Source of the DNA: Nocardioides speluncae
GTDB lineage: Bacteria; Actinomycetota; Actinomycetes; Propionibacteriales; Nocardioidaceae
Direction: 5' to 3'
Assembly (NCBI RefSeq): GCF_003121585.1
Contig: NZ_QEOO01000005.1
Location: 1 to 64,000 of the forward strand
Length of the DNA stretch: 64,000 nt
Part shown: positions 6,788 through 42,431 of the stretch, piece by piece
Layout: each line of letters begins with the position of its first letter
How positions within the stretch are numbered: the stretch's first letter is position 1
The notes under the pieces: generated by a model
What the model saw: the letters and a program-made list of their open reading frames with translations, nothing else
Databases searched by the model: none
Told to the model about the DNA's origin: nothing
Made by a program: the position numbers and the translations under genes

Positions 6788-6803
6788 CCGTCGAGCCTAG
6801 GTG

Positions 6804-7491: not shown

Positions 7492-7580
7492 GGTGATTCT
7501 CCTTGCTGGTCGGGGAACCCCCGAGCAGCTCCTTCTTCTTGGAATGTAGACCTGGCGAGCGGCTCGCGCTCGGCTATCGG

Positions 7581-7934
7581 CTAGCCCTTGACGTAGGAGA
7601 GCTTCTCGGCGACGAGACCTCCCCGGACCCGGAACACGTCCACTCCGCGAACGTGCCCACCGGCCCAGCTGTAGCGCCACAGCACGATCGCACGGTCGCC
7701 GCTCACGATCTGCTCCTCGGCCTCGAATACGGCGTCCGCCGAGTCGCGGAAGAACGCCGCCCACGAAGCACGTACGGCGTCCTGGCCCTCGTACCGGCCA
7801 CCGTTCGGCGGCGCCGTGCTCTCGAACACGCAGTCCACGGTCATGGCTGCCATCACCGCGTCCACGTCCTGCCGGTCGAATGCGTAGGCGAACCGGGCGA
7901 CCGCGGCAGCCGTCCCGTCCGTGGCCGCGTCCAT
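7581..7934 (-). CDS. SnoaL-like (NTF2-fold) protein
   Basis: A 117-residue cone-shaped NTF2-fold protein of the SnoaL/SgcJ type. It starts with an alpha helix (AVARFAYAFDRQDVDAVMAAM, about 10-30), then DCVFES, a GQDAVRASWAAFF helix, and three C-terminal strands ending FRVRGGLVAEKLSYVKG. Such proteins bind or isomerise small hydrophobic molecules, and the ligand is unknown. Its ATG overlaps the stop of the upstream cupin gene by one base (TGATG), so the two are translationally coupled. Confidence 0.88.
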   Translation of the reverse strand: MDAATDGTAAAVARFAYAFDRQDVDAVMAAMTVDCVFESTAPPNGGRYEGQDAVRASWAAFFRDSADAVFEAEEQIVSGDRAIVLWRYSWAGGHVRGVDVFRVRGGLVAEKLSYVKG

Positions 7935-8314
7935 CAGGTTTGCTTGGCGTAGTGGCTGGCGCCGAACCAGTCGACCACCACGACGTCCTCGTCGCCGACG
8001 ACCCAGGCGTCATGCCCGGCGGGCAGCGAGGTCACCTGGCCCGGCGTCGCGTCGAACTCCCGGCCATCGGCGGTCCGCAGCCTCAGCGTGCCGGACACGT
8101 GGTACTGGAAGTGCGGGGCCTCGCAGAGGTCGGTGCCGGCGATCGGCTTGACGTGCTCGGACCAGCGCCAGCCCGGTGCGAGGACCAGGCGCCCGATCTC
8201 CATCCCGCCCATCGAGAGGATCTCGGCCCGGCCGTGGTCGAAGGTCCGGACCTCGTCCGGCTCGGCGAAGTCGCGCTGCTCGATCAGCTGCTCGGTGTTC
8301 GTCTCGATGCTCAT
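7934..8314 (-). CDS. Cupin-domain protein
   Basis: A 126-residue single-domain cupin. The first cupin motif is around WSEHVKPIAGTDLCEAPHFQYHVSG (about 50-75) and the second around PGQVTSLPAGHDAWVVGDE (about 90-108). The beta-barrel may hold a metal through the His residues. The function is not known. It is the first gene of a coupled pair with the SnoaL-like gene and is divergent from the large BTAD regulator at 8411, sharing a 96-base intergenic region with it. Confidence 0.85.
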   Translation of the reverse strand: MSIETNTEQLIEQRDFAEPDEVRTFDHGRAEILSMGGMEIGRLVLAPGWRWSEHVKPIAGTDLCEAPHFQYHVSGTLRLRTADGREFDATPGQVTSLPAGHDAWVVGDEDVVVVDWFGASHYAKQT

Positions 8315-8410
8315 CTCTGCTCCTGTGCTCTCGGTTCTCCACCCCAGTGGCGGTGACCCAAAAGTAGGAATCCGTCCTTGCAGAATTCTTGCGGTTGCGA
8401 TGATGAGCCG

Positions 8411-11400
8411 GTGGCAGGGGCCGGGCGGATCGAGCTCCGACTGCTAGGTCGGTTCGCTGTGCTGCGCGACGGCGTCGAGATCCCGCCGGCGGCGTTTGCG
8501 GGCCGCAAGGTCCGCACGCTGCTGAAGGTGCTCGCCTGCCGGCAGGGCCGCTTCGTCAGCAACGACACGCTGGCCGAGGCGCTCTGGCCCACCAAGCCCC
8601 CGTCGGATCCGGTGGCGAACCTCCAGGTCCTGGTCAACCGCGCACGCCGCGCGCTGGGAGACGCCGCACTGATCGTGACCGACCGGGGCGGCTACACGCT
8701 CGTGAGGAGTGCCGCGTGCTCGGTCGACAGCGAGCGGTTCCTTGACGCGCTGAGCGACCGATCGCTGTCCGCTCCGGGACTTCAAGAGGCGCTCTCGCTG
8801 TGGCAGGGGGAGCCGCTGCCGGAGGAGGCGTACGACGACTGGGCCGTCGGCTACCGCGCCCGGCTCCTGCGTGCTCACCAGGACGCACTCGAGCGGGCCG
8901 CGCTCCTGGCGATGGAGGATGGTGCCGCGGGCACCGCCGTCGAGCTCGCCAGTCGCGCGGTGGAGGCAGAACCGCTGCGCGAGATCGCCGTACTGACCCT
9001 CATCCGTGCGTTGGCGGCTGCCGGCGACGGCGCGGCCGCGCTGCAGGTGTACGACGACTACCGGCGAGCGCTGGCCGACGAGCTGGGCGTCGACCCGTCC
9101 GCCGAGGCGGTCGCCCTGCATCAGAGCCTGCTCCGGCAGGCGCCACCGCCGGACCAGGCGCCTCGGCGACGGTGGTCCCGCGAGTTCGCCGAGCTTCCCT
9201 TCGTGGGCCGCGGCGCCGAGCTCAGGAAGATCCGGACCGCCCTCACCGAGGCTGCCGGACGCCGTGTGTTCGTGGCGATCAGCGGGCCTTCTGGCGCAGG
9301 CAAGTCTCGCCTGCTCGACAGCCTGGCCCGCGAGGTGCCGATGGTCCGAGCGCGCGCCCACCCGTCCGAGCGCTCCGAGCCCTGGACGCTGCTGCGCACC
9401 CTGCTCCGCGAGGTCGCGGCGCAGGACATCGCGCACGTGGACCGGCTGCCGCCGCCCATGGCCTCGGCGCTCGCCTGGCTCCTACCGGAGCACGACGGTC
9501 GTGGGGGAGCGGACCTCGATCCGGAGAGCCGGCGGATCCTGCTCCACGAGGCGTCGCTGCGGCTGCTCGAGGCCGCCGGCGTGATCGCCGTCGACGACCT
9601 CCAGTGGTGCGACCCGAGCAGCCTGGGCGTGCTGGAGGCGGCGACCGCCCGGATCGCGAACCTGAGGACGGTGCTCGCGTACCGGCCCGAGGAGGTCGCC
9701 GACCGCGATGACGTCCGTGCCTTCGTCGGCCGCGCCAACTGCGTTCTGCGCGTCGACCTCGGCGCGCTGCCCGACGAGTCGCTTCCCCAGCTGGTCGCCG
9801 ACTCCGGTGTCGTCGAGGCGCTGCGCCAGCACACCGACCGGACGCCGATGGCGGTGGCGGAAGTACTCAGGGCGCTGTCCGCCGAGGGGTTGGTGGCGCC
9901 CGCGCCCGAGGGCGCCTGGCAGTCCAGCGGCGATGCTGCCGCGCGGGCGGTGGCGCTGGCGCGGGAAGGGCAGCGGCTCGCGATCCACGCGCGTGCGGCC
10001 GCCCAGCGCGATGCGGACCGCGAGCTGCTGGCGCTGCTGGCGTTGGTGGCGCGCGAGACCAATGCCTCGACGCTGGCCGCAGCGACGGCGACGCCCGAGC
10101 CCCAGGTGCTCGACTCGCTGTCGCGGCTGTTCCGGAGCGGGCTGGCGCAGCTGGGTGACCAGGGCTGGAGTACCAGCCACGACATGGTGACCGAGGTGGT
10201 GTCGTCCGGACTCGACATCGTCGAGCGGGCCCGGCTGCATGCCAGCCTGGCCCGAGCGCTTCGGTCCGAGGACGACCCGCTGCTGCTGGCGCACCACCTG
10301 CGGGAGGCCGGCGATTCGCGTGGCGCGGCTGATGCGTACGCCGTCGCCGCCCAGCGGGCGTTCGACACCGTGGCCGACGACGAGGCGGCGCAGCTGGCAG
10401 GCGTCGGGCTGGGGTTGTCGCCGACGGCAGCGGTCCGCGCTGAGCTACAGGAGATCCGTGGCCAGGCGCGGCAGCGGCTCGGTGACTATGCCGGAGCCCG
10501 GGAGGACCTGCGGTCGGCGCTCGCCGTACACACCTCGGGACCGGCCCGCGCCCGAGTCCTGGCCCGGCTGGCCATGGTCTCCTCGGGAGCCGAGGACATC
10601 GTCCGGGCGGCCCAATTGGCCGAGCTCGCGGTCGTGGAGGCGGGTGAGGACGCGCCGATCCGGGCCCGCGCCCTCGAGGTCGCGTCGGTGCTCGACATGA
10701 ACCTCGAGCGCGGCCGGCGGTCGGCCGAGCGTGCGTCCGAGGCCCTGGGCCTGTACGAGAGTCTCGGGGACGCCAACGGGATGGCGCGGATCCTCGACGC
10801 GCGGGCCATGGCCCAGTTCCTGGAGGGCGACGTCCGTGGTGGCGAGGCCGCGCTGCGACGGGTCGCCGACCTCTTCGAGGATTCCGGCGACCTGGTCCGA
10901 GTCGTGACGCCCAGAGCGACCGCCGGTCACGCCCTGGTGTTCGCCGGCCACCCCGAGCAGGGCCTGGTTCAGGTCACCGCCGCGCTCGAGCTGGCCCGGA
11001 CCCTGGGCCATCCCGAAGGACAGGCGTACACCCTGTGGCACCGGACCGAGGCGCTGGCCGCGCTCGACCGCGGCGAGGAGGCAGCGGCGGAGGCGGCCGA
11101 GGCGCTCGCCATCGCCACCCGGATCGGCCACCGCGGCTGGACCGCCACCGGATGGCGGGCCGTGGGCCTGGCTGCCCAGCAGCGTGGCGAGCTCGACGAA
11201 GCATTGCAGGCGTTCCGTCGCTCACTGGATCTCTCTGAGCACCTCGGCCTGTTCGCCTCCTGGGCCGCGGCTCGCGCCGCCATGGTGCTGGTGTCGCAGG
11301 GCCGACCCGAGCCGGCCGTCCCCTTGGTCGCACGCGCGCTTCGCGAGGGGCCGCCGCTCGGGCACTACGAGGCACGGTGGGCCCAGGTGGAGCTGGCCGT

Positions 11401-11521
11401 AGCCCTGGGTGACGCGGCGGCTCCCGCGCTCGCCCAGGCGGCGTGCGACCTGCTGAAGGCTGGCGGCGTCCAGCAGGCGCGCGAGCGGTTGCTGGCCGTC
11501 GCCGCGACGTACTCAGACTGA
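8411..11521 (+). CDS. AfsR-like BTAD/ATPase/TPR transcriptional regulator
   Basis: A large regulator of about 1,036 residues. It has an N-terminal winged-helix OmpR-like DNA-binding domain (LRLLGRFAVLRDG start), a bacterial transcriptional activator (BTAD) helical domain to about residue 240, an AAA/NTPase domain with Walker A SGPSGAGKSR (about 291-300) and Walker B AVDDLQWCD (about 392), and a long TPR-like helical C-terminus. This matches SARP/AfsR-type activators, which respond to a signal and bind near -35 elements. GTG at 8411 was chosen because the DNA-binding domain begins just after it; TTG at 8378 is possible. Its stop lies two bases after the beginning of the third copy of the 19-base motif. 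Confidence 0.88.
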   Translation: MAGAGRIELRLLGRFAVLRDGVEIPPAAFAGRKVRTLLKVLACRQGRFVSNDTLAEALWPTKPPSDPVANLQVLVNRARRALGDAALIVTDRGGYTLVRSAACSVDSERFLDALSDRSLSAPGLQEALSLWQGEPLPEEAYDDWAVGYRARLLRAHQDALERAALLAMEDGAAGTAVELASRAVEAEPLREIAVLTLIRALAAAGDGAAALQVYDDYRRALADELGVDPSAEAVALHQSLLRQAPPPDQAPRRRWSREFAELPFVGRGAELRKIRTALTEAAGRRVFVAISGPSGAGKSRLLDSLAREVPMVRARAHPSERSEPWTLLRTLLREVAAQDIAHVDRLPPPMASALAWLLPEHDGRGGADLDPESRRILLHEASLRLLEAAGVIAVDDLQWCDPSSLGVLEAATARIANLRTVLAYRPEEVADRDDVRAFVGRANCVLRVDLGALPDESLPQLVADSGVVEALRQHTDRTPMAVAEVLRALSAEGLVAPAPEGAWQSSGDAAARAVALAREGQRLAIHARAAAQRDADRELLALLALVARETNASTLAAATATPEPQVLDSLSRLFRSGLAQLGDQGWSTSHDMVTEVVSSGLDIVERARLHASLARALRSEDDPLLLAHHLREAGDSRGAADAYAVAAQRAFDTVADDEAAQLAGVGLGLSPTAAVRAELQEIRGQARQRLGDYAGAREDLRSALAVHTSGPARARVLARLAMVSSGAEDIVRAAQLAELAVVEAGEDAPIRARALEVASVLDMNLERGRRSAERASEALGLYESLGDANGMARILDARAMAQFLEGDVRGGEAALRRVADLFEDSGDLVRVVTPRATAGHALVFAGHPEQGLVQVTAALELARTLGHPEGQAYTLWHRTEALAALDRGEEAAAEAAEALAIATRIGHRGWTATGWRAVGLAAQQRGELDEALQAFRRSLDLSEHLGLFASWAAARAAMVLVSQGRPEPAVPLVARALREGPPLGHYEARWAQVELAVALGDAAAPALAQAACDLLKAGGVQQARERLLAVAATYSD

Positions 11522-11563
11522 TCAGGAATCGAGAAGCACGGTGCCACCGCGCCGCCGTAGCGT
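11520..11563 (+). promoter_or_regulatory. Motif copy 3 plus -10 before the VOC gene at 11601
   Basis: The third identical copy of GATCAGGAATCGAGAAGCA is at 11520-11538, with TAGCGT at 11558-11563 after 19 bases. It begins at the stop codon of the BTAD regulator, so the downstream VOC gene has its own promoter. Confidence 0.65.
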
Positions 11564-11600
11564 CGCGAACATCAGTCAGCAGATCGAAGGGAGACACACC

Positions 11601-11993
11601 GTGTCACTGCAGATGAGCCTCGTCATGCTCGGCGTCAAGGACGTGGACAAGGCGAAGGCGTTCTACGTCGACGGACTCGGCGGTCAGCCGGACCAGGACT
11701 TCCCCGGCTTCGTCCGGCTCAGCCTCGGCGACGGGTCCACGAAGCTCGCGCTGTACTCGTGGGATGCGGTCGCGGAGGACGCCGGGGTGGCCGCGGAAGG
11801 CTCGGGGTTCCGTGGCATCTCGCTGCACTACCTCGCCGACTCGCGCGAGGAGGTCGACCAGACCATGAAGGCGGCCGGGGCAGCCGGCGCCACCGTGGTC
11901 AGGACAGCGGCCGCCGCGGATGAGTGGAGCGAGTACTTCGGCTACTTCAGCGACCCGGACGGCTACCTCTGGAAGGTCGCCACCTCCGCCTGA
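11601..11993 (+). CDS. VOC family protein
   Basis: A 130-residue VOC protein with VDKAKAFYVDGLGGQPDQDF (about 13-32), KLALYSWD (about 50-57) and a C-terminal SDPDGYLWKV strand. The domain resembles the second half of the tandem VOC protein at 1271, including the same FYV...LYS/LYT layout. The start is GTG at 11601 after the ribosome site GAAGGGAG; an upstream in-frame start would read through the promoter. It lies directly downstream of the AfsR-like regulator and carries the shared 19-base motif in its promoter. Confidence 0.9.
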   Translation: MSLQMSLVMLGVKDVDKAKAFYVDGLGGQPDQDFPGFVRLSLGDGSTKLALYSWDAVAEDAGVAAEGSGFRGISLHYLADSREEVDQTMKAAGAAGATVVRTAAAADEWSEYFGYFSDPDGYLWKVATSA

Positions 11994-12015
11994 CCCGACC
12001 GCTCCAACTTAACTC

Positions 12016-12055
12016 GAACACGCGTGTTCAGGTTGTGCTACCCTGGCACAACCTG
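12016..12055 (+). promoter_or_regulatory. Two inverted repeats over the MFS promoter (likely operator)
   Basis: GAACACGCGTGTTC (12016-12029) is a perfect palindrome. Directly after it, CAGGTTGTG and CACAACCTG (12029-12037 and 12047-12055) form a perfect 9-bp inverted repeat around TACCCT, a plausible -10. Blocking here would shut off the MFS operon. The TetR-type regulator two genes downstream is the likely ligand-sensing repressor (inference). Confidence 0.6.
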
Positions 12056-12083
12056 AACATTGCTGTACGAGTTAGGAGAGGTC

Positions 12084-13493
12084 ATGAGTACGACGACGGC
12101 GACGCCGCACCCCCGCCGCTGGCACACCCTCGGGCTGCTGGGCCTGGCGCAGTTCATGCTGATTCTCGATGTCACGGTCGTGGCCATCGCGCTGCCGCAC
12201 ATGGGCAGCGACATCGGCCTCGGTCGCGACGCGCTGACCTGGGTGGTCAGTGCCTACACGCTGACCTTCGGCGGCCTGATGCTGCTCGGCGGCCGGGCCG
12301 CCGACCTGCTCGGGCCGAAGCCCGTGGTGATCGCCGGGCTGCTGGTCTTCACCGCCGCCTCGCTGGTCACCGGACTGGCGACCGGTCCCGAACTGGCCAT
12401 CGGCGGCCGGATCGGCCAGGGCGCCGGAGCCGCGATGCTGTCGCCGGCCGCGCTGTCGGTGGTGGTCCGACTGTTCGAGGGGGAGGAGCGCAACAAGGCG
12501 CTCGGCATCTGGTCCTCGCTCGGTGCCGGCGGCGCCGCGATCGGCGTACTGCTGGGCGGGCTGCTCACCTCGGGACCTGGCTGGCAGTGGGTCTTCTTCA
12601 TCAACGTGCCGGTCGGCGTGGTGGTCATGATCGCGCTGCTCCGCCTGCTCCCGCCACTGCCGGCGTGGGGCTCGAGCGGCCGCCTCGACCTGGTCGGCGC
12701 GACGCTCGTGACCGCTGCTACCGCGCTGGTCATCCTCGGCTTCATCGAGGCTGGTGACGGCGGCTGGACCTCGGCCCGCACGGCCGCCCTGGTCGGCGGT
12801 GGCGTCGTCGGGTACGGCGTACTCGCCCTCTGGCTGCGAAGCACCAGCACCCCGCTGATCGACCCGGCGCTGTTCACCCGACGTCCGGTCCTGGCCGGCA
12901 CCTTCGTGCTGTTCGTCGCGACCGCTCTGATGATCGCCGTGTTCTTCCTCGGCACCTTCTACCTGCAGGGCGTCGCCGACCACGGCCCGCTGGTCACCGG
13001 CCTGCTGTTCCTGCCGGTCGCGGCCACCACCATGGCCGGCGCGCAGGTCGCGGGCCGACTGGTCGGCCGGCTCGGCGCGCGGGGCATCGGCGTCATCGGC
13101 CTGCTGGTCGCGGCGGCCGGCCTGCTCGGACCGGCACTCAGCCCGAGCACGCTGACCACCGTGGTCGCGGTCAGTCTGGGTGCGGCCGGGCTCGGCGCGC
13201 TGTTCGTTGTGGCCTCGGTGACCGCGCTGAGCCAGGTCGAGCCGCAGCTGGCGGGCGTCGCGTCCGGGATCCTCAGCACCTTCCACGAGCTCGGCGCCTC
13301 GCTGGGTGCCGCGGTGATGTCGGGCGTGGCCGCGGCCAGCCTGGTCGCCGGCACAACCGCAGGCTTCGAGCGTGCCTACCTGGTCGCGGCCCTGGTCGCC
13401 GCCGGGGGAGCGGTCGTCACCGCTGTCCTGGTGCCGGGCCGCCCCGCCGCGGCACCGGCCGACACGATCTCGGCCAAGGAGGCGCTTTCGTGA
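12084..13493 (+). CDS. DHA2-family MFS drug exporter
   Basis: A 469-residue major-facilitator transporter with about 14 hydrophobic segments, as in the EmrB/QacA drug:proton antiporters. Motif C-like GIWSSLGAGGAAIG and the first-helix LGLAQFMLILDVTVVAIALP pattern, with Asp in helix 1, support this. It should export toxic organic compounds. The ATG at 12084 follows the ribosome site TAGGAGAGG. It overlaps the next gene as GTGA and lies upstream of a TetR-type regulator. The promoter is covered by two inverted repeats, which suggests repression relieved by substrate. Confidence 0.92.
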   Translation: MSTTTATPHPRRWHTLGLLGLAQFMLILDVTVVAIALPHMGSDIGLGRDALTWVVSAYTLTFGGLMLLGGRAADLLGPKPVVIAGLLVFTAASLVTGLATGPELAIGGRIGQGAGAAMLSPAALSVVVRLFEGEERNKALGIWSSLGAGGAAIGVLLGGLLTSGPGWQWVFFINVPVGVVVMIALLRLLPPLPAWGSSGRLDLVGATLVTAATALVILGFIEAGDGGWTSARTAALVGGGVVGYGVLALWLRSTSTPLIDPALFTRRPVLAGTFVLFVATALMIAVFFLGTFYLQGVADHGPLVTGLLFLPVAATTMAGAQVAGRLVGRLGARGIGVIGLLVAAAGLLGPALSPSTLTTVVAVSLGAAGLGALFVVASVTALSQVEPQLAGVASGILSTFHELGASLGAAVMSGVAAASLVAGTTAGFERAYLVAALVAAGGAVVTAVLVPGRPAAAPADTISAKEALS

Positions 13494-13897
13494 ACTGGTC
13501 CTTCCTTCGCCACTACCTGGAGATGCTGGTCGCGATGGCCGTCGGCATGGCCGCCCTGATGCCGCTGTGGGAGCTTGCCGCCGGTGACCGGCCGGATGCC
13601 TCATGGGTCAACCGCGCCGAGGTGGAGTCGCTGGTGATGGCCACCGCGATGGCGGTGCCGATGGCGCTGTGGATGCGGTTCCGTCGGCACCGGCTGGCGC
13701 CGATCGTGGAGATGTCGCTCGCCATGTACGCCGGCTTCGTGACGCTGTTCCCGCTGCTGTGGCTGGGCGTCCTGGACGCCGGGGGAGTGATGATGATCGG
13801 CCACGTGCTGATGCTGGTGCTGATGCTGGCGGCCATGCTCGCCCGCTACCGCGAGTACAGCCACGCTCACCCGCGAGGTGCCTCGTGCGCTGCCTGA
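13490..13897 (+). CDS. Four-helix membrane protein, unknown function
   Basis: A 135-residue methionine-rich membrane protein with four predicted transmembrane helices: about 7-28, 44-61, 70-92 and 98-118. It overlaps the stop of the MFS exporter gene as GTGA, so the two are translationally coupled, and it probably works with the exporter or shares its inducer. Similar proteins are sometimes labelled FliP-like, but nothing flagellar is nearby, so no function is assigned. Confidence 0.8.
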   Translation: MNWSFLRHYLEMLVAMAVGMAALMPLWELAAGDRPDASWVNRAEVESLVMATAMAVPMALWMRFRRHRLAPIVEMSLAMYAGFVTLFPLLWLGVLDAGGVMMIGHVLMLVLMLAAMLARYREYSHAHPRGASCAA

Positions 13898-32266: not shown

Positions 32267-32494
32267 CCCACGCAGCTTGGATCCACTACCCCGCTGTCAA
32301 CGAGGAATCGCCTCCTGACCTGCGGAAACACGTGACGGAACGGCGCCTGGAGTGCTCCTTCGGCGACCCGCACCCACCAAGTCGGTGCACCTGACGACCT
32401 ACACGACACGCCGTTGACCTGCACATACACACTGGGCGTCTCATCAGATGCATCATTGAATCACTGGCTGTAACAGGATTTGGGGGGGTACTTG

Positions 32495-33598
32495 ATGCAG
32501 ATTGACGGCGCAGGACGGGTGCAGCTGGTGCAGTCGATGCCGGTCCTCCGGCCCGACGAACAGGTGCTCCAGCTGATGCTCGACGGCTGGCGCAACCAGC
32601 AACTGTCCCGCAACCTCCGGTTCGACACGATCGACCAGCGCCTCCGCTGTGTGAAGCGGTTCCTGGACCACGTCAACGAAGACCCCTGGAACTGGACGCC
32701 GGCCATGGTCGAGGAGTTTTCGGCCGACCTGCGCACCGTCAAACACGTGTCCCACTCGACGCTGCGCGGCTACCACTCCGCCTTGCGGGGCTTCACCAGT
32801 TACAGCAACCCCGACTACGGCTGGGACCGGATCTGCGAGAAGTACTTCGGCACACACCCGGCCCAGGTCTTCTTCGACTGGAACACCGCTCCTCACGTCG
32901 AGGAGTACGACGGCCGGCCCACGAAACGTCCGTACACCCGCGAAGAGATCAGCGCACTATTCGACCACGCCGACGACGAGGTCGAGCTCATCGGGAAGTC
33001 CAGCCGCAAGGGCTGGCAGGCCGCGTATCGCGACGCAACCATGATGAAGATCGCATACGCCTACGGCCTCCGATTCAACGAGCTCCGCCACCTTCAGACC
33101 GTCGACTTCGCTCGCAACCCACGCGTCCGTGAGTTCGGAGCCTTCGGGATCTGCAAGGTCCGCTACGGCAAGGCCAAGCGATCGTCCCCACACAAACCGC
33201 GGAGCGTGCTCACCGTCTGGCGATGGACACCCGGCATCCTCGAGGACTGGCTCGCCAACGGCCGGGGCGAACCAGGCACGCTCGACCTCTTCCCCAGCGA
33301 GCGTGGCGGCCTCGTCGTCGAGTCCACACTGATCCGCCGAGTGCGCCGCTACTGCCAAGAGCTGGGGTTCTCGGAAGGACTCGACCTCCACTCGTTTCGA
33401 CGGTCGTACGCCACTCATCTGCTCGAGGACGAATGGGATCCACGCTTCGTACAGGACCAGATGGGCCACGAGTACGCGTCGACGACCGGGATCTACCAGT
33501 TCGTCTCCGACGAGTTCCGGAGCTCCACGCTCAGGAGCGCGCTGGACCGTACGGTGAAGGAAGCCATGGCACGCAGGACCGAGGACGGCACATCATGA
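32495..33598 (+). CDS. Tyrosine-type site-specific recombinase/integrase
   Basis: A 367-residue tyrosine recombinase. The N-terminal SAM-like core-binding domain spans about 20-115 (SRNLRFDTIDQRLRCVKRFLDHV). The catalytic domain has Arg I in YGLRFNELRHL (about 190-200), the Lys beta-hairpin region, HSFRRSYATHLLE (HxxR, about 298-310), GHEYASTTGIYQFV with the second His and the nucleophile Tyr about 338. All catalytic residues are present. ATG at 32495 follows a G-rich site. Its stop overlaps the HTH gene as ATGA. Confidence 0.9.
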   Translation: MQIDGAGRVQLVQSMPVLRPDEQVLQLMLDGWRNQQLSRNLRFDTIDQRLRCVKRFLDHVNEDPWNWTPAMVEEFSADLRTVKHVSHSTLRGYHSALRGFTSYSNPDYGWDRICEKYFGTHPAQVFFDWNTAPHVEEYDGRPTKRPYTREEISALFDHADDEVELIGKSSRKGWQAAYRDATMMKIAYAYGLRFNELRHLQTVDFARNPRVREFGAFGICKVRYGKAKRSSPHKPRSVLTVWRWTPGILEDWLANGRGEPGTLDLFPSERGGLVVESTLIRRVRRYCQELGFSEGLDLHSFRRSYATHLLEDEWDPRFVQDQMGHEYASTTGIYQFVSDEFRSSTLRSALDRTVKEAMARRTEDGTS

Positions 33599-33927
33599 AG
33601 CGCAAGGTCGACTACACCTGGAGGCTCGCCGAGCTGATGGCAGCCCGCGGCCTGCACAACACCACAGACCTCATCCCCCTCTTGGCTGAACGCGACATCA
33701 CCCTGTCCCGGCCCCAGGTCTATCGCCTGGTGAATCAGCGCCCGGAGCGAATGTCCCTTCAGGTGGTCGCGGCGCTGTGCGACATCTTCGACTGCACGCC
33801 CGCGGACCTGCTCACCACCACCGCTGCGGACGTTCGTGTGCGCAAGACCGGCACCGCTTCCCCGCCCAACGTTGTCTCGCTCGACCGCACCGTGCGGCCA
33901 CGTCGCGCGAACATCCTCGACGAGTAG
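33595..33927 (+). CDS. XRE-like helix-turn-helix protein of the recombinase operon
   Basis: A 110-residue Cro/C1-type HTH protein. The DNA-binding part is about 8-66 (RLAELMAARGLHNTTDLIPLLA, SRPQVYRLVNQRPERMSLQVVAALCDIFDCTPADLL), followed by a basic tail. It is coupled to the integrase by an ATGA overlap and followed 14 bases later by the third gene. The fixed order integrase / HTH / zinc-finger recombinase-like suggests it regulates the operon or helps recombination. Confidence 0.87.
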   Translation: MKRKVDYTWRLAELMAARGLHNTTDLIPLLAERDITLSRPQVYRLVNQRPERMSLQVVAALCDIFDCTPADLLTTTAADVRVRKTGTASPPNVVSLDRTVRPRRANILDE

Positions 33928-33941
33928 CTCAGGGAGCAGCG

Positions 33942-34028
33942 ATGGATCCGAAACCGGTCGGCCTCTCCCCTCGTTCCACCGTGCGCGGTCGACCGCGCAC
34001 ACCAAGAAGCCGCAGCGGCCGCGAAGAC
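33942..34028 (+). pseudogene. 5' part of the third recombinase-operon gene, split by the Tn3 element
   Basis: ATG at 33942 has the ribosome site AGGGAGC. Twenty-nine codons (MDPKPVGLSPRSTVRGRPRT and on) run exactly to the transposon edge. Removing the transposon and one copy of AAGAC joins GAA GAC to CCA TGC at 41002, giving PCARCSRN, the first zinc-finger knuckle. The gene is therefore interrupted by the insertion. Confidence 0.8.
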
Positions 34029-34070
34029 GGGGTGTCGGTAAGAACGCTGTCACCTGCCGCCACATTTCGG
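34029..34070 (+). repeat. Left terminal inverted repeat (IRL) of the Tn3 element
   Basis: It begins GGGGTGTCGGTAAGAACGCT and ends GCCGCCACATTTCGG. It is preceded by AAGAC (34024-34028), repeated at 40997-41001. It matches the right repeat in inverted orientation with about seven differences, clustered at its outer and middle bases. Confidence 0.9.
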
Positions 34071-34371
34071 TGACGGTCGGGCCCGCTGCTGAGAGCCGCT
34101 GAGCGTCCGTTGTGTGGGCCGCGCTGAGGTCGTGCCCGCCGGGGTGGCGCGGCGGCGGCTCGCGCGCTACGGAGGTGGGCGTTCGAACGTAAAGTTTGAG
34201 CGAAGCGCTTGCCGATTCGTGTGACCTGAATCACGCTGGAGAGTCGCCTCCGGTCACCGCAGATGCCGGTTCGCAGTCGGTACGGGGTTAGCGGAATCTG
34301 ATGAGGACGGCGGCGGGAGGACGGTGCGGGGGTGCGCTCTCGCACACCACCAACGGGGAAGGTGAAGAATC
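34071..34371. other. Left intergenic region of the transposon
   Basis: About 300 bases between IRL and the first passenger gene, with no gene seen. It should hold the promoter for the rightward pair at 34372 and 34949. Candidate elements such as GTGACCTGAATCACG near 34220 (arms GTGA / TCAC) cannot be assigned with confidence. Confidence 0.5.
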
Positions 34372-34956
34372 GTGAGAGCGGGGAAGAAGCGGGCTGTCTT
34401 GGCCCTGGTGTTGGCGGCAGCAGGCGCCGGAGCCCTTGTGGGCGGCGCGATGGCAATGGGTTCGGAGGGCACTGGCGCGCCCTTGACGCGCGCCGAGGTG
34501 TACCACGACGGCATGACCCTGGAAGAGGTCCAGGCGGCAGCTACGGGCAAGGTCGGGGAGGTTGCGCCGCCGTGTCCCGATGAGGCCACGGTGGCCCGAC
34601 TCAAGACCGCGGGTCTGCCGTTCGGTCCGTGCGACCCGGTTCCCGAGGAGGGTCAGCCGGTGATCATTCCCGACCCCCGGTTTGAGAGACCTGAACCCGG
34701 CCCGGACGACGACGTGTGTCCCGGCGCCACTCTCGGGAAGGGCGTGAGCCTGACCGTCTTTGTACCGTGCGCGCCTGGTGCGGAGATCACCGCTGTACAA
34801 GCTGTGCAGGTGAACGGAACCTACTGCGCGAGAGTCTCGTACGTCGCACGGACCGCTGCGACGCCGAGAACCGAAACGGTGTGCCCCGGCGAGGAGCCAT
34901 CGTCCACTCGCGTGTCGGTGGTTTCCCCCGAAACGGAGGAGCACGCTCATGAATGA
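34372..34956 (+). CDS. Exported or anchored six-cysteine protein, paralogue of the anti-sigma ectodomain
   Basis: A 194-residue protein with a basic N-terminus and one hydrophobic segment (about 7-30) that could be a signal peptide or anchor. Residues 66-175 carry six cysteines (68, 87, 116, 133, 152, 171) in motifs CPDEATVARLK, PCDP, VCPGATLGKG, VPCAPGAEI, YCARVSYVAR and ETVCPGE. The same motifs with almost the same spacing form the outside domain of the protein at 35555-36196. GTG at 34372 follows GGGGAAGG. It overlaps the protease gene by eight bases. Function unknown; a decoy, ligand or partner for the sensor is possible. Confidence 0.85.
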   Translation: MRAGKKRAVLALVLAAAGAGALVGGAMAMGSEGTGAPLTRAEVYHDGMTLEEVQAAATGKVGEVAPPCPDEATVARLKTAGLPFGPCDPVPEEGQPVIIPDPRFERPEPGPDDDVCPGATLGKGVSLTVFVPCAPGAEITAVQAVQVNGTYCARVSYVARTAATPRTETVCPGEEPSSTRVSVVSPETEEHAHE

Positions 34957-35545
34957 CCTATTCGGTGTGCGGCGGTGGGGGCTCGTCGCATTGTTGGCTT
35001 CGGTGTTCCTCCTGGCGGCGGTGGCAGCGGCCAATGCGAGCCACCCGATGGTGCAACCTGACGGCGACCGCATGCACTGGTCCGACAATGACCCAAGCTT
35101 TCCGCGCGGCTACGTCTTCTGGCAGGACCAGACTGGCGCGGAGTGGCCGGTGTTCTCGTCGGCTGTTCAGTGGGACAGGGCCAGTCGACTGGACGCGGTC
35201 TATGTCACCGGGAGCTGCACATCCAACCACTGCGTCACCGTGCGCGAGGCCGACCTCGATCCGGGATGCACTGGGAGGCTTGGTGAGGTCCTCCACGTGA
35301 CCGGCCCAGCGGGGCACTACTTCTCGGCTACCGAGGTCCGTATCGACGCGCAGTGCGACGCGCGGAGCGCTGCTGACCGGCGCGAACTCGTCTGCCACGA
35401 ACTAGGCCACAGCACCGGCCTGGATGACCGACCGTCCAACACGAATACCTGCATGCGTTCCGGCGACATGGTCGGCGAGCAGTTCCCGGACGGGCACGAC
35501 TTCGAGGTGCTGCTCTTCAGCTACAACCACGACGACCCCGGCTAA
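34949..35545 (+). CDS. Secreted metzincin-like zinc metalloprotease
   Basis: A 198-residue protein with a signal peptide (about 1-30, ending AANA). The catalytic motif CHELGHSTGLDD gives HExxHxxGxxD at residues 150-160, in which two His and an Asp bind zinc and Glu151 acts as base. Met169 in TCMRSG fits the Met-turn of metzincins. Six cysteines (90, 95, 107, 136, 149, 168) suggest disulfides. The mature protein is small, so substrate specificity may be narrow. It is translationally coupled to the six-cysteine protein upstream and convergent with the anti-sigma gene. Confidence 0.82.
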   Translation: MNDLFGVRRWGLVALLASVFLLAAVAAANASHPMVQPDGDRMHWSDNDPSFPRGYVFWQDQTGAEWPVFSSAVQWDRASRLDAVYVTGSCTSNHCVTVREADLDPGCTGRLGEVLHVTGPAGHYFSATEVRIDAQCDARSAADRRELVCHELGHSTGLDDRPSNTNTCMRSGDMVGEQFPDGHDFEVLLFSYNHDDPG

Positions 35546-35554
35546 ACGACCGGG

Positions 35555-36196
35555 CTAGGGTGTCGGCGGGCCGCTGACGGGCGGCCCGCCGACCGAAGGA
35601 CGATCACCCTCACACAGCGTCTCGGTCACCTGGTCCTCACCCGTCTTCGCGACGTAAGTGACCCGCGCGCACCACTCGCCGTCGACTTTGACCAGCCTAG
35701 TGTCGAGGATCACCGCTCCCTCAGCGCACGGCAGCGCAACGGTCAATCCCGCGATCTTGCCGATCGTCACAGCCGGACATGTCTGGTTCCCGTCGGAGCC
35801 GGGCTGTCCGGAACCGGGCTGCTCGGCATCGGGCGACGAGGTGTCCCCATTCTCGGGAAGTGGGTCACAGGGCGGGATCTCAATGCCGTCGGCCTTCATC
35901 TGGGTGACCTCAGCCTCGCTGGGGCAGGCCGGGAAGCTGGCGGCGTCGGAGCTATCGGGCTCGATAGTGACCGGTGGCTCGGTTTGCGGTGAGCCGGCCT
36001 CGATGATGCCCAACACCCCGACCCCTCCGGCCAGCAGCGCCACGGCCGCCGCAGCACCTCCCCCGAGGATCAGATGGGTCCGTCGGCGCCGTAGGTACCG
36101 GGCCCGTCGCTGCACACTCCGGCGCACCAGGTCGGGGCTCGGCTGCGGGGCCCGGTCCGCGGCCTCGTGGAGCAACGCTTCCATCTCGTGTGGCAT
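35555..36196 (-). CDS. Transmembrane anti-sigma-like protein with six-cysteine ectodomain
   Basis: A 213-residue single-pass membrane protein. The N-terminal 41 residues are cytoplasmic, helical and very basic at the end (RRRARYLRRRRTH-like). The membrane segment is about 42-65. The outside part has six cysteines (91, 110, 140, 157, 176, 195) and ends in a Pro/Gly-rich tail. It lies 13 bases after the sigma gene and is therefore the likely anti-sigma factor, though the classical HxxxCxxC zinc motif is absent. ATG at 36196 follows CCGGAGG. Its ectodomain is shared with the protein at 34372. Confidence 0.85.
   Translation of the reverse strand: MPHEMEALLHEAADRAPQPSPDLVRRSVQRRARYLRRRRTHLILGGGAAAAVALLAGGVGVLGIIEAGSPQTEPPVTIEPDSSDAASFPACPSEAEVTQMKADGIEIPPCDPLPENGDTSSPDAEQPGSGQPGSDGNQTCPAVTIGKIAGLTVALPCAEGAVILDTRLVKVDGEWCARVTYVAKTGEDQVTETLCEGDRPSVGGPPVSGPPTP
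35562..35593. terminator. Terminator hairpin between the convergent passenger genes
   Basis: GTCGGCGGGCCG and CGGCCCGCCGAC form a perfect 12-bp stem with an 8-base loop. It overlaps the last codons of the anti-sigma gene and lies 17 bases after the protease stop, so it may serve both directions. Confidence 0.6.
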
Positions 36197-36209
36197 GACT
36201 TGCCTCCGG

Positions 36210-36701
36210 TCAAAGTGATGGGATGAGAAGATCGGCGCCGAGTTGGTCACGCAGCTTCGCGATCGCCCGTGAGGCTCGGCTCCGCACGGCCGAGTCGGAC
36301 AGCCCTAGGTCGTGGCCGACCTCGGCTACCGTGCGGTCGCCGTAATAGCGGAGAACGATGATCGCCCGATCCGTGCGGGGAAGGCCGACGATCGCTGCAT
36401 GCAGCGCCAGCGACGCGGCGACATCCGGCTCCACCGCCTGCTCGGGTAGGACCTCTGTCGGCACCTCGGTGGAGCTCCGGCGCTGTTTGCCCTTGATGAA
36501 CTGATGGACAAGCACCGTCCGCGCATATCCGGCGGGGTTGTCCAGCCTGGAGCCGCGTTCCCAGCGCGGAAACAGCCTGGCAAAGGTCTCCTGCACCAGG
36601 TCCTCGGCGGCCTGCTGTTCTCCCACGAGGAGCCAGGCCGTGCGGTACAGCATCGGGGTCGTCTCGACCGCGAACTGCTCAAACGACTCGTGCTTGCTCA
36701 C
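36210..36701 (-). CDS. SigE-family ECF RNA polymerase sigma factor
   Basis: A 163-residue ECF sigma factor. Region 2 is about 10-70 (MLYRTAWLLVGEQQAAEDLVQETFARLFPRW), and region 4 is about 100-155 (LPRTDRAIIVLRYYGDRTVAEVGHDLGLSDSAVRSRASRAIAKLR). The profile is that of the actinobacterial SigE family, in which the sigma gene precedes a membrane regulator gene. GTG at 36701 has the ribosome site GAAAGGAC. It begins 20 bases after the tnpR stop, so resolvase, sigma and anti-sigma may be one transcript. Confidence 0.9.
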   Translation of the reverse strand: MSKHESFEQFAVETTPMLYRTAWLLVGEQQAAEDLVQETFARLFPRWERGSRLDNPAGYARTVLVHQFIKGKQRRSSTEVPTEVLPEQAVEPDVAASLALHAAIVGLPRTDRAIIVLRYYGDRTVAEVGHDLGLSDSAVRSRASRAIAKLRDQLGADLLIPSL

Positions 36702-36721
36702 GCTGGGGTCCTTTCGGGCAC

Positions 36722-37459
36722 CTACAACATGTCTGATCCTGCAGGGTCGGCAAACGTTGCATCCTGAGGCGAAATTGACCCGCGCGTGGTCGCCGAGGGC
36801 GGCGCTTGTGTGCGGGCCGCGGCGCGCAGTTCGCGGAGGTCGGGGATGTGGTTGTAGAGGGTGCCGGGGCTGATCCCGAGGAGCTTGGCGATCGAGGTCA
36901 CGCTGTGCTCGGGGTTCGGCAGTAGGTCGCGGGCGGCGCGGATGAGGTCGGCGTCGACCACGGTGGGTCGGCCGCCGACGCGGCCGCGGGCCCGGGCGGC
37001 GGCGAGGCCTTCGTGGGTGCCAGCGACGATGAGCTCGCGGATGAACTCGGCGAGGGCAGCGAAGACGTGGAACACCAGCCGGCCTCCGGGGGTAGTGGTG
37101 TCGAGGTTCTCGTGCAGCGAGGTGAACCCGACGCCGCGACCGCGGAGGTCGCCCACGGTGGTGATCAGGTCCTGCAGCGATCGAGAGAGTCGATCGAGGG
37201 AGGCGACCACCAGGGTATCGCCGGGCCGCATGAACTCGAGCGCGGCGGCCAGCTCGGGGCGGTCGTCGTTCTTGCCGGACCTCTTCTCGGCGAAGATCCG
37301 CCGGCAGCCGGCCCTGGTGAGCGCGTCGAGCTGCCGCTCAAGGTTCTGCTCGGTGGTGGAGACCCGGGCGTAGCCGATCCGGATCTCGGTGAGGACGGCC
37401 GGCTCGGCCGCGAGCAGAGCATCAGGGACTTCGTCGGAGGGGACATCGACCGCGGTCAT
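36722..37459 (-). CDS. tnpR: Serine resolvase (TnpR)
   Basis: A 245-residue serine recombinase. The catalytic domain has IGYARVSTTEQNLERQLDAL (Ser nucleophile about 36), EKRSGKNDDRPELAAALEFM, VASLDRLSRSLQDLI, and a C-terminal helix-turn-helix (VTSIAKLLGISPGTLYNHIPDLRELR, about 187-212). It resolves cointegrates made by the transposase. Its N-terminus is about 25 residues longer than Tn3 resolvase. ATG at 37459 is used. The 364-bp gap to tnpA contains resolvase-type inverted repeats. Confidence 0.9.
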   Translation of the reverse strand: MTAVDVPSDEVPDALLAAEPAVLTEIRIGYARVSTTEQNLERQLDALTRAGCRRIFAEKRSGKNDDRPELAAALEFMRPGDTLVVASLDRLSRSLQDLITTVGDLRGRGVGFTSLHENLDTTTPGGRLVFHVFAALAEFIRELIVAGTHEGLAAARARGRVGGRPTVVDADLIRAARDLLPNPEHSVTSIAKLLGISPGTLYNHIPDLRELRAAARTQAPPSATTRGSISPQDATFADPAGSDML

Positions 37460-37470
37460 GGTGCCGAGCC

Positions 37471-37503
37471 TGTCAGATAACGGTCCACCGGAGGTTGTTG
37501 ACA
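37471..37503. promoter_or_regulatory. Inverted repeat in the res region, site 1
   Basis: TGTCAGATAAC pairs with GTTGTTGACA across 12 bases, about 12 bases upstream of the tnpR start. The 33-bp span suits a resolvase dimer site and would allow autoregulation. Confidence 0.45.
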
Positions 37504-37574
37504 CTCGACGCCGTGAAGGGGTTTTTGAAGATCCGGCCAGGCGCGATCGCGCTCTCAAATCACCGCACTCGGCC

Positions 37575-37604
37575 GCCTTCAACAAAGGAACGTTTGCTGA
37601 AGGC
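37575..37604. promoter_or_regulatory. Inverted repeat in the res region, site 2
   Basis: GCCTTCAACAAA and TTTGCTGAAGGC are 12-base arms with one mismatch around a 6-base centre. The 30-bp span fits a resolvase subsite. Confidence 0.5.
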
Positions 37605-37823
37605 GTGATGTGGCGAGGGCCGGCGGGCGTGGCGGCTGCGGGACCGGTGGGAAAAAGGAGGCCAGTCCCGCAGTCTCCACACCCGGATCAGTGCCAGTTC
37701 TTCCCCCCCGAAGATCTGGCGCGGAGCCCAAGCCACGAGTCGCTCCGCACCTGACCCGGTGCTTGCAGTATCCACCTATCAGGTTGGACCGGTAGCAGAT
37801 TCCCCGATTCAACCGGCCGGGTT

Positions 37824-40800
37824 TCATGCCTCACGAAGCGATAGCCGCCGGCCCATGTTGAGGCGGACCTCGCCGTACGGCTTGACGTGGGTCCAGAACA
37901 GGGGTGTGAGTCCGCGGTGGTCGACGTTGGTCATCCGGTTGGCCCACTCGTCGTCGGCGAGGACGTCTTGGACCATCAGGGTGTTGACGTAGACCAGCGC
38001 GGACTGGAGCACGCGGAGGCAGAGGACCGACAGCTCCTGTTCCTCGCGGCGGTTGGTGGTCAGGTCACCGCCCCTGCCGAAGAAGATGACGTCATTGCCG
38101 CCGTTCCAGGACTCCACGACGTTGAGGCCGGCGTTGATCTCGCGCTGCAGGTCGCGCTCGCGCAGGTAGCGGGCCACGAACAGGGTCTTCTGGGCGCGGC
38201 CGGTCTCGATCATCGCCTGGTAGGTCGGATGGATCGCGTTGGCCTTGGTGAACCTGCGCAGGATCGCCTCGGTCGACCCGGTGCCGGATCGGATCGCGGT
38301 GGCGTACTTGATCATCTGGTCGTACTGCTCGGCGATCACCTCCCACCGGATCGGCCTGGTCAACGCCGGCGCCAGGTGCGGGTAGGCGTCCGGTTCGCCG
38401 GCAGCAGGGCGGTAAAGCTTGACGTGGTTAATCCGCTTGATCCGCGGGAGCAGGTCGAATCCGAGCAGCCGGGTGAGTCCGAAGCCGATCTCGGACTGGC
38501 CGTGGGAGTCGGTGTAGTTGCCCTCGACCTCCATCGTGGTGCCGTGACGCATCGCGCCCTCGATCATCGCCGCGACCTCGGAGGCCGAGCAGCTGATCAG
38601 CTGGGAGTGGATGGCCATCGACTTCTCTTCGACGTGCCAGTAGATGAGTACGCCGCGGCCTCCGTACCGCGAGTGCCACTCGGTGAAGATGTTCTGGTCG
38701 AGCGCCCCGAAGTGGGTCGAGTCTGAGGCGACCGCCGAGGAGCCGGCGCCCCACACGCCCGCCTGGCGGACCGCGAACGTGGCGTTGGCGATCTCGGTGG
38801 CCATCGCCCGAACCACATCGACGGTGAGGTAGCGGCGGCGGACGTAGCGCAGGTCGTCCTCGGAGTGCCCGTGCTCGCCGCCGGCGACCGCGCGGATCCC
38901 GGTGTTGGTGCCGTAGGCGTACACCGCAAGCAGCAGCCGCTCGGCGAGGACCTCGAGGGCCAGGTCGCCGCGGCCCGCGCTCGAGGTGACGCGGTCCAGG
39001 CAGCCAGTGCGCAGCACCGCCTCTTTGAGCATGTCGATCAGCGGGACGGTTCCCCACCTGGAGCCCACCTCGGCCTTGAGCGCCCGCAGGTTCCGCGGCT
39101 CCGGCGCCGGGTCGAGTGCGGAGAGCTTGATCGGCCCTGTTTGCCACGGTCGCGGATCTCGACCCAGTCCAGCGTCGGCAGCTGCTCGTTGAGCGCGGCA
39201 AGCTCGGCCTGCAGCTCGGTGCGCAGCTGGTCGATGAACGCCGAGGGGTCCAGCGGCTTGCGGAGCGCGGCGTAGTGGTCGCTGCGGCGGCTCTCGAAGT
39301 CACGGGGCAGGTCCTCGTCGGGATTACGCCACTTGTCGGCGCCGACCACCCAAATCTCCTTGCAGCGCAGCCGCTCCCGCAGCGCCTGGAAGACGCAGAT
39401 CTCGTAGGTGGACCGGACCACCCTCTGCCGGCCGCGCTTGTCGGTCCGGTACACCAAGGTTTCCCAGTCGCCGGCCACCACGCGGCTGGTCGGAAGATGC
39501 TCGCCGCGCGGGTAGTAGGTCACCCGGCCGTTCTTGTACCGAGCCACCAGGTCCAGCGCGTCGAGTACCGGGCGGTGGGTGGTGTTGGAGGAGCGGAACT
39601 CCAGCACGTCGAGCAGCTCGATCAGCCCGCGCCGGTAGTGGTTGGTGTAGGAGGCCTTCAGCGTGGTCTGCACCGTCCGTCGGTACACCGGCCCCTTCGT
39701 CTTGTACTCGTGTACCAGCTCCTGCAGGGTCTGCTCGCCTCCGGTCACGGCCGGGAACACCACCTCGCGGACCGGATCGTCCGGCGCGTCCAGGGCGGCC
39801 TCGGCGATCGCGAACAAGATGTTCTCCTTGCCGGTGACCTTCTTGAACGCGTTGACCAGCTCCTGGGTCACCCGGTGACTGGCCCGTGCGTTGATCTTGT
39901 GGACCGTGGAGATCAGCAGATCGACCAGGGTGTCGGTGATCTCCCGCTCACGCGCGTGCATCAGTGCCGACAACAGCGTCAGCCGCAGCTCGGTCGGGTG
40001 ATCACGCATGTGCGACGGCGACTCCACCGCCGCGCGGCCACGCCACCCGGCCAGCACCTTTGGCGCAACATTGGCGAACAGGCCGCCCGGAAGTCCGATC
40101 GCGCGGACCGCACGGAGCTTGCGGACCTCGGTCAGCATCGACTCCAGGCTCACGTTGCCCGGAACGGTCTTCACCAGCGCGAGCACCGACTCCTCGCCGG
40201 CGTCGTCCTGGTCGACGTCGTCGACGCCGGCGCCGGCGCCGACCAGGGCCTCCAGCCGCTCAATAGTCGCCCGCGGCAGCCTGCCCGCGATCCGGCACGA
40301 CAACGCAACCTCAGCCTGGTGTAGAGCCGAGCGCACCATCCGGTCCAGCCGGCCCGGTGTCGGCGGCTCGACCCGCTCCTCGCGGCACCGGATCAGTAGC
40401 TGCTCACGGACCACATCGTGGTGCCGCTCGGCCTCGCACACCTCGGACGCCAACCACGCAGTCAGCTTGTCCGCGTCCTCCACCGAGCACACCCGGAAGC
40501 CGAAGTGGCTGCGAACCTGCGCTCTGTGCCGCTCGAGTGTGCGGCCCGACCACTCATAGAGGCCGATCTCCGATGCGGGAACGTCCACCTGGTCAGCAAC
40601 GAACTGCACCACGGTTTCCTGTAGCTCGCCACGGCCACGAGGGAACCGCCCATGCTGGCCGTAGAACTTCAGCAGCAGCGCCAGCCCCAGCTTGCCGGCA
40701 CCGCCCTTGCCGCTCAGGGCCGCCCGCTCGTCGCTCAGCAGAGTCCAGTGCTCAACCAACTCGTCCAGCTCGATCGCCCGATGCACGATCGGCCATACTT

Positions 40801-40831
40801 CCGCGCCGCGTGGCCGCCGACCACCCCTCAC
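37824..40831 (-). pseudogene. tnpA: Tn3-family transposase tnpA, one-base frameshift
   Basis: Together the two frames encode about 1,002 residues, normal for Tn3 TnpA. The first frame (GTG at 40831) runs to LDWVEIRDRGKQG. At about 39131-39136 one C is missing (CAGGGCCGATC instead of CAGGGCCCGATC), and the DDE domain continues in the next frame from IKLSALDP to 37824. The DDE part has ASDSTHFG, YWHVEEKSMAIHS and EVEGNYTDSHGQSE. As read, no full transposase is made, unless by frameshifting or unless the base loss is a sequencing error. Confidence 0.85.
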
Positions 40832-40954
40832 CGCTGATCGCGTCAGATCGCCGCCATCAGCATCCAGACCCGGCCGGCACCCAAATCACAGGCACTTGCT
40901 TCGCAGAGCGCCGATCTGAGCGAAGACGGATCACATCCAGGCACCCTCGGGACT

Positions 40955-40996
40955 CCGAAATGTGGCGGCTGGTGACACGCTTCTTACCAGCGCCCC
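40955..40996 (-). repeat. Right terminal inverted repeat (IRR) of the Tn3 element
   Basis: On the minus strand it begins GGGGCGCTGGTAAGAAGCGT and ends GCCGCCACATTTCGG. It is followed on the plus strand by AAGAC (40997-41001), the second copy of the target duplication. Confidence 0.9.
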
Positions 40997-41001
40997 AAGA
41001 C

Positions 41002-42431
41002 CCATGCGCACGCTGCAGCCGGAACATCCCGCGCATCGCGAAGCGGTGGCCAGAGGGCCGGCTGTGTGTTTCACCTGCTACTACGACGCCGTCCACACCC
41101 GTGGAACATGCCCGGAGTGCCTTCAAGACCGACTGCTGCCCGGCCCGCGCAATGCCGACGGCCAACCCACCTGCGCAACCTGCGCCCAGATCCCCTACGA
41201 CTTCCACTGCGAACGGTGCGATGTCGAAGCCGGACACCATCGCGGCCGACTGTGCGCCCGCTGTGCCCTGCGGGACGACCTCCACGGGCTCTTGGGCGGC
41301 CCACCGGGCAGTCCCGCACGCGTCGGGCTCGTGGATTCCCTCTGTGCATCGGAACGGCCCGAATCGATCTTCGTCTGGAAGCGCTCCCCCAAAGTCCAGG
41401 CCCTCCTTGGTGGCCTCGGCGACGGCACAGTACCCATGACCCACGAAGGACTCGACTCGGTCGACAACAAGCAGGCTGAACACCTCCGTGCACTACTCCA
41501 ACACCACGGCCACCTTCCACCGCGGGACCCGTACCTGCCGCGGTTCGAACGGTGGATCGACGCCAAGCTGGACGGCCTCCCCGACGAGGTCCGCCAGCCC
41601 GTCCAGCACTTCGCGACCTGGCACCACCTTCGGCGCATCCGTGCCAAGGCAGCAGCCGGCGCGTCGATGCGTGGTCCGGTGCACTCGGCCAAGCAGGAGA
41701 TCACCGAAACGGTGAAATTCCTCGTGTGGCTCCATGAGAGCTACCAGCGCACTGCCGCCACGTGTACCCAGCAAGACGTCGATGAGTGGCTGGCCACGGG
41801 CCCGACGACGCGCAGCGCGATCAGGACGTTCTTCGTGCTCGCGAAGAAGTCGCGGCTCAACACCAAGGTCACGATTCAACACCGAGCGGCGAAGACGAGC
41901 CGATCACTCAGCCAGGACCAGCGACTCGCGTGGATCCACGAACTCCTCACCGGCACCAGCGAGTCACTCCCCTACCGCATCGCCGGCATGCTCCTGCTGC
42001 TCTACGCCCAACCGCTGGTGAGAGTTGTTGAGCTCCAGACCAGCGTCATCGACGACGGCGACGAAGGCATGACCATCACGCTCGGAAAGCACGCGACGGA
42101 TGTCCCCGAGCCGTTCGCATCACTCCTACGCGAACACCTCGCCGCGCGACCAAACCTGCGCACCGGCGCCGGTCCCGATAGTCCCTGGCTATTTCCGAGC
42201 ATCAGGGCTGGCCGACACCTGCATCCGAACACCGTCATGGACCGGCTCCGCGACCTCGGGGTCAACCTCCTCGGCGCCCGCAACCGAGCCATCGGCGAGC
42301 TCGTCCTCGAATGCCCGCCCTCGCTCGTGGCGGACGCGCTCGGCTACAGCGCCCAGGTCGCCTTCCTGCATGCCAGCAAGGCTGCTGAGCCCTGGGCCCG
42401 CTACGCCGGCCGGCGGCTCTCAGCACCTTAG
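41002..42431 (+). pseudogene. 3' part of the zinc-finger recombinase-like gene
   Basis: It continues the 5' part at 33942-34028. The first codons (PCARCSRNIPRIAKRWPEGRL) are in the original frame. Near 41065 an extra GT in GTGTGT shifts it, and the rest (CFTCYYDAVHTRGTCPEC to the stop) reads in the other frame. Zinc-knuckle pairs CxxC recur up to about residue 100. The last 200 residues look like a tyrosine-recombinase catalytic domain with degraded motifs: the HxxR box reads RNRAIGEL and the Tyr region is WARYAG. It is disrupted by the transposon and by the 2-base insertion. Confidence 0.75.

Follow-up and report, generated by a model that had tools for sequence, protein, structure and literature searches.

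A sigma/anti-sigma pair, a predicted secreted metzincin and an exported protein related to the anti-sigma ectodomain within a Tn3-family transposon of Nocardioides speluncae

The window analysed here is a stretch of 64,000 nucleotides from Nocardioides speluncae (contig NZ_QEOO01000005.1, in an assembly of 5.7 Mb and 51 contigs). It contains a Tn3 element of 6,968 bp (34029-40996), inside which four cargo genes at 34372-36701 form two convergent pairs. The rightward pair encodes an exported protein, which we call ecto, and a predicted secreted metzincin protease, while the leftward pair encodes a SigE-family sigma factor of the extracytoplasmic function (ECF) type and a likely anti-sigma factor whose outer domain is related to ecto:

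34372..34956, + strand: exported six-cysteine protein (ecto), predicted partner of the protease, called from sequence and a structure model
34949..35545, + strand: predicted secreted metzincin with a signal peptide and a catalytic domain (HELGHSTGLDD, TCM)
35555..36196, - strand: likely anti-sigma factor with a cytoplasmic part of about 41-46 residues, a single hydrophobic segment and an ecto-related ectodomain
36210..36701, - strand: SigE-family ECF-type sigma factor, above the TIGR02983 cut-off and with Sigma70_r2/r4

All four cargo frames were found open when both strands were read around 34-41 kb. The ecto and metzincin frames overlap by 8 nt, and 9 nt separate the protease stop from the anti-sigma stop, which bears out the convergent pairs and the coupled genes for exported proteins described in the initial annotation. 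Its identification of a SigE-type sigma gene also holds, with 149.3 bits against TIGR02983 (SigE-fam; cut-off 141.55 bits) and further matches to Sigma70_r2 and r4. The likely anti-sigma factor is encoded directly with the sigma factor and has a cytoplasmic part followed by one predicted membrane segment; its preferred start is the ATG at 36196, with a GGAGG site and at 13 nt from the end of the sigma gene, although the list of open reading frames places the start further upstream, at 36250.

The short anti-sigma N-terminus (about 41-46 residues) matches NF052375 below threshold. According to excerpts of one study, class I anti-sigma domains (ASDI) are four-helix domains usually longer than 50 residues, and those below 50 are suspected to be class II (PMC7406223). 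Three distant relatives of the protein are encoded in the same genome, every one of them immediately following a sigma gene; the SigE-family cut-off is passed by two of the three sigmas, and the third scores above that of NF007227, another ECF subfamily, and is partnered by an anti-sigma factor that is zinc-finger-like (so named from its sequence). A short N-terminus, an RRR run and a membrane segment are common to six anti-sigma candidates encoded behind SigE-family sigmas. The window's pair resembles two SigE-family (TIGR02983) pairs of its own genome in gene order and in its short N-terminus; it differs from SigE-family pairs with a single-pass anti-sigma factor in that its ectodomain also exists as a secreted protein and in that it is carried by a Tn3 element.

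Ecto itself is a protein of 194 residues, with a hydrophobic segment near residues 9-27 and an AMA cleavage-like site. Its kinship with the outside domain of the anti-sigma factor, which the initial annotation had pointed out, is clear (46% identity over 116 residues, BLASTP E 3e-28), and six cysteines are invariant in all 19 of the 19 aligned ectodomain rows. In a tree of 21 ectodomains, several of them long-branched, the four anti-sigma copies form one clade (100/98; recovered in 200/200 bootstrap trees) apart from all secreted copies. The ectodomain model has a mean predicted local distance difference test score (pLDDT) of 78. Pfam searches with both ectodomain proteins of the window gave sub-cut-off matches alone, in the signal or membrane region, and over the 19 rows they gave four weak families (best E 8e-4).

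The protease has 198 residues, with no prodomain seen. It carries the HExxHxxGxx(H/D) motif and the Met-turn of metzincins (clan MA(M)) as HELGHSTGLDD and TCM, in line with the HExxHxxGxxD protease of the initial annotation, and its structure model is predicted to adopt the fold of a metzincin catalytic domain, as in matrix metalloproteinases (MMP), karilysin and snapalysin. Of 26 aligned protease rows, 25 retain the H/E/H residues, the exception (P0021) being cut short, and the third zinc-ligand position (window residue 160) is occupied by Glu in 13 of the 26, by Asp in 7 and by His in the other 6. Glu as third zinc ligand is unusual among metzincins, and snapalysin has Asp as its third ligand. 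The window protease matched neither the M10 matrixin nor the M7 snapalysin profile, and no family in Pfam or NCBIfam (0 in each); PF00413 was matched weakly by 15/26 protease rows (best E 5.5e-5), and no solved structure was matched by sequence. As a small secreted actinobacterial metzincin it resembles snapalysin of Streptomyces caespitosus, for which a bound protein, sermetstatin, is named in the title of structure 4hx3, but it differs in lacking such a match to solved structures and in having a family in which the third ligand position may be E, D or H.

The reading that we favour, if tentatively, is that ecto is the partner of the protease, probably its inhibitor, and that the anti-sigma factor displays a relative of ecto as a protease sensor; the likeness of its outer domain to the protease's exported partner is what would enable it to sense the protease. 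Ecto would bind the protease and hold it in check, as suggested by the lack of a visible prodomain and by the finding, described below, that such metzincins nearly always adjoin the gene of an exported partner. Protease that is free would then engage or clip the anti-sigma ectodomain at the cell surface, regulated intramembrane proteolysis (RIP) of the anti-sigma factor would liberate the sigma factor, and the sigma factor would activate its own operon and possibly that of ecto and the protease too, making a self-contained switch. The metzincin fold and the export of ecto and protease are predicted; binding or inhibition by ecto, sensing and cleavage are what we infer.

Two kinds of known system, joined, give this proposed mechanism. 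The ectodomain of RsiV of Bacillus subtilis is described, in excerpts of two papers, as binding and inhibiting lysozyme, and binding as triggering the release of sigma-V by regulated proteolysis (PMC5014341, PMC6066255). What we propose has in common with RsiV a membrane anti-sigma factor whose ectodomain serves as receptor for an extracellular enzyme and inhibits it; it departs from RsiV in that lysozyme is not encoded with the sigma factor there, whereas here a transposon encodes the sigma factor together with the protease and a second, secreted form of the ectodomain. In the potempin/KLIKK operons of Tannerella forsythia, small lipoproteins reportedly act as inhibitors of the protease expressed along with them (excerpts of PMC7296668, which cites then-unpublished data). 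The window shares with the karilysin-PotA pair a secreted metzincin beside the gene of a small exported protein, karilysin being among the closest folds; unlike the potempin pairs it has an ectodomain without detectable fold match, an added sigma/anti-sigma pair and an inhibition that we infer. RsiV-like logic and protease/partner pairs are known, and their combination on a mobile unit would be the new element. The initial annotation knew of no described system with this gene set, and a literature search by titles and abstract openings, with subscription papers mostly outside it, likewise found none. A broader version of our reading, in which the locus would be a mobile protease-immunity-sensing cassette (a metzincin with an inhibitor of its own, and a sigma/anti-sigma pair with a copy of that inhibitor as receptor) by which the cell reads free protease of its own or of its kin and responds by means of a portable sigma factor, seems to us possible but doubtful.

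How far the gene set recurs elsewhere bears directly on these readings. Ecto lies directly upstream of a full-length protease relative, with an overlap of 4 nt, in a Propionibacteriales metagenome-assembled genome (L009) and in Nocardioides marmorisolisilvae (L010). What both relatives with a full-length protease share with the window is this pair, without a sigma gene; the four-gene set was directly read at one locus, that of the window. The conserved neighbourhood that the initial annotation called for is found for the ecto/protease pair. Among metagenome protein matches, equal sizes of the longest contig suggest that fuller gene sets recur: protease, anti-sigma and ecto matches sit on equal-sized contigs of 3,081 bp (known from the protein matches alone), protease and anti-sigma matches on contigs of 3,096 bp, and protease and ecto matches on contigs of 1,420 and 9,211 bp. 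This pairing covers 3/12 ecto and 2/3 anti-sigma matches outside the window, the remainder having no equal-sized partner. Searches detected ecto or the ectodomain of the anti-sigma factor in 5/294 genomes of the family Nocardioidaceae, 3/293 of the order and 1/158 of the class, the genome of the window included each time, and the module is therefore rare.

These findings also bear on what the duplicated ectodomain does. The initial annotation proposed a mobile unit in which the protease and the duplicated ectodomain act on, or compete with, the sensor; the mobile unit and the duplication are real, but we prefer a partner reused as a sensor to a decoy for an unrelated signal, because the sigma-less pair recurs and because distant metzincins are nearly always partnered. 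It would be rather unlikely, in our estimate, that the anti-sigma ectodomain is a substrate, with the metzincin as the site-1 protease that frees the sigma factor and the secreted ecto as a rival substrate by which the threshold is set. The co-encoding of protease and ectodomain and the two copies of the ectodomain would fit this, and membrane anti-sigma factors are described as being usually released by RIP (PMC8999054, in excerpt). A six-cysteine, probably disulfide-rich domain would, however, be an improbable preferred substrate, and the L009 and L010 pairs have neither a nearby sigma gene nor a second copy of the ectodomain (E 1e-5), so that a decoy substrate would have nothing of the kind to protect there.

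The pairing of metzincins with exported partners extends well beyond the close relatives. We collected 34 distant metzincin loci of the family with wide flanks (L086, L090-L106, L137-L152), 18 from one protease-family search and 16 from a second search down to E 2.1e-12; seven of the loci (L094, L098, L102-L106) belong to other genera. The window, L009, L010 and eight loci with short flanks (L027-L033, L048) were left out, and in those eight no SigE-type sigma was found at E 1e-5. The adjacent gene on the same strand matches an exported-partner profile in 32/34 loci, and many partners have a lipobox-like motif. The profile was built from 15 of the 34 partners, which match by construction; in the held-out loci the partner is adjacent in 17/19 (misses L086 and L151), and the profile has a single non-adjacent match in 462,970 bases. 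None of the partners tested matched Pfam (0/15). As a separate observation, a second, distant metzincin (G000:C2:76328-76747; L086 16329-17033) lies about 41 kb from the first and lacks the partner gene that metzincins of this kind normally have.

In four of the 34 loci (L090, L096, L097 and L139) a SigE-family sigma gene is located no more than 2.5 kb from the metzincin, adjoining it in L090 and L096, and all four sigmas score above the TIGR02983 cut-off. The search profile came from six sigmas, three of them those of L090, L096 and L097, which the window sigma alone had already found. Against these four, about 0.8-1.1 were expected by density (assuming about 20 sigma genes per 4.5 Mb; binomial P 0.009-0.022). 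In the fetched DNA, the stretches near a metzincin contain 4 sigmas in 185 kb and those further away 1 in 278 kb; with a limit of 200 bp the counts are 2 in 37 kb inside and 3 in 426 kb outside. At L097 (G105:C16:132000-148000, 5291-13629) the metzincin and lipoprotein genes overlap by 4 nt and converge on an anti-sigma gene and a SigE-family sigma gene, flanked by what we take to be an integrase and a MobF-like relaxase gene; it is an independent and probably mobile copy of the window's convergent layout. Beside the L090 locus lies, at 9277-11718, a gene for a large secreted protease that is immune-inhibitor-A-like (M6; a name taken from the sequence).

Several of our results weigh against a partner turned sensor. 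The ectodomain has no confident fold match and no solved relative (best E 0.73), and it is for this reason from gene position alone that an inhibitor role is suggested. No SigE-type sigma was found in the 16.5 kb searched around each of the L009 and L010 pairs, and no second ectodomain copy in either genome at E 1e-5. Ecto is present in two genomes, G099 and G167, yet these fall outside the 21/198 genomes matching the closer protease family (in G167 395 nt separate the copy from the end of its contig, and a distant metzincin is found elsewhere in G099), and the 3,096-bp contig size has no ecto match. The ectodomain profile matches none of the distant-locus partners, so that ecto need not have their role. 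The association of sigmas with metzincins is modest, and its 2.5-kb limit was chosen after the distances were known; the pattern is suggestive, short of proof, since other genes, including a hydrolase gene, stand between sigma and metzincin in L139, and L096 has an 88-residue metzincin fragment alone. None of these four loci (0/4) has an anti-sigma ectodomain related to its partner protein, and the repeated domain is therefore special to the window's type. Finally, no promoter-like word shared by the two operons was found beyond shuffles, and control of the ecto-protease operon by the sigma factor therefore lacks sequence support.

Some of the same results could be accounted for if the ectodomain family bound an outside ligand (an envelope component, a glycan or a metal), with the secreted copy as a binder and the protease as one regulated output. 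Ecto without the closer-family protease in G099 and G167 would fit such a role, as would the anti-sigma factor of L097, whose Kelch-type ectodomain is unrelated to the partner protein. But ecto stands directly upstream of the protease in both named genomes with a full-length relative, equal contig sizes couple ecto and protease three times, and we judge this explanation unlikely.

The transposon that carries the four genes is delimited by the following features:

34024..34028, no strand: target-site duplication AAGAC, left copy, read from the sequence
34029..34070, + strand: left terminal inverted repeat of the Tn3 element, 35/42 versus the right end
36722..37585, - strand: serine resolvase of the transposon (PF00239)
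37824..39068, - strand: Tn3 transposase, C-terminal part with the DDE domain (PF01526, NF033527)
39038..40831, - strand: Tn3 transposase, N-terminal part in another frame, with an apparent frameshift near 39038-39068
40955..40996, - strand: right terminal inverted repeat, pairing with the left end
40997..41001, no strand: target-site duplication AAGAC, right copy

The two inverted repeats, of 42 nt each, agree at 35/42 positions and a perfect 5-bp duplication (AAGAC) borders both ends, from which we conclude that a Tn3 element of 6,968 bp has inserted here. With its Tn3 transposase, resolvase, long inverted repeats and 5-bp duplication, it has the make-up of the Tn3 family and upholds the placement of the cargo given in the initial annotation; the resolvase gene runs on the same strand as the sigma gene and ends 20 nt upstream of its start. 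The transposase, split over two frames, looks frameshifted, and given the frame change at 39038-39068 this copy may not move unaided. The transposase part used as a query is single-copy in its own genome, and at least 5,000 plasmid records hold a relative; in the two such records examined the cargo is absent from the annotation, whose gene table is incomplete.

It is in this light that a chance assembly has to be weighed, in which one transposon collected a sigma pair and a protease pair without joint function, or in which the element is decaying. The frameshift, the single copy in the genome and the unrelated annotated genes around the two plasmid transposases would all agree with it. We nevertheless consider it improbable: none of the four cargo frames is broken, the anti-sigma factor bears a domain that is encoded next to the protease, and the anti-sigma match P0030 (48% identity) is on a contig equal in size to that of a protease of 65% identity, because of which the set has probably outlived a long divergence.

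SigE-family sigmas were present in 128/128 genomes sampled from the genus, with 5 to at least 26 per genome. For most of them we know of no signal. Here the sensor domain of the anti-sigma factor occurs a second time, as a free protein encoded next to a protease, and a testable candidate ligand can thus be named. If true, our preferred reading would show an inhibitor turning into a receptor, in a whole signalling unit able to move. The analysis also brings to light a frequent family pair, a small secreted metzincin and an exported partner without a Pfam family (15/15 tested).

At its insertion site, the Tn3 element interrupts the apparent third gene of a recombinase set (33942-34028 and 41002-42431), whose other members are a tyrosine recombinase (32480-33598) and a small helix-turn-helix (HTH) protein (33595-33927). 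Read across the reconstructed empty site, the frames hint at a possible additional shift in the target gene further right.
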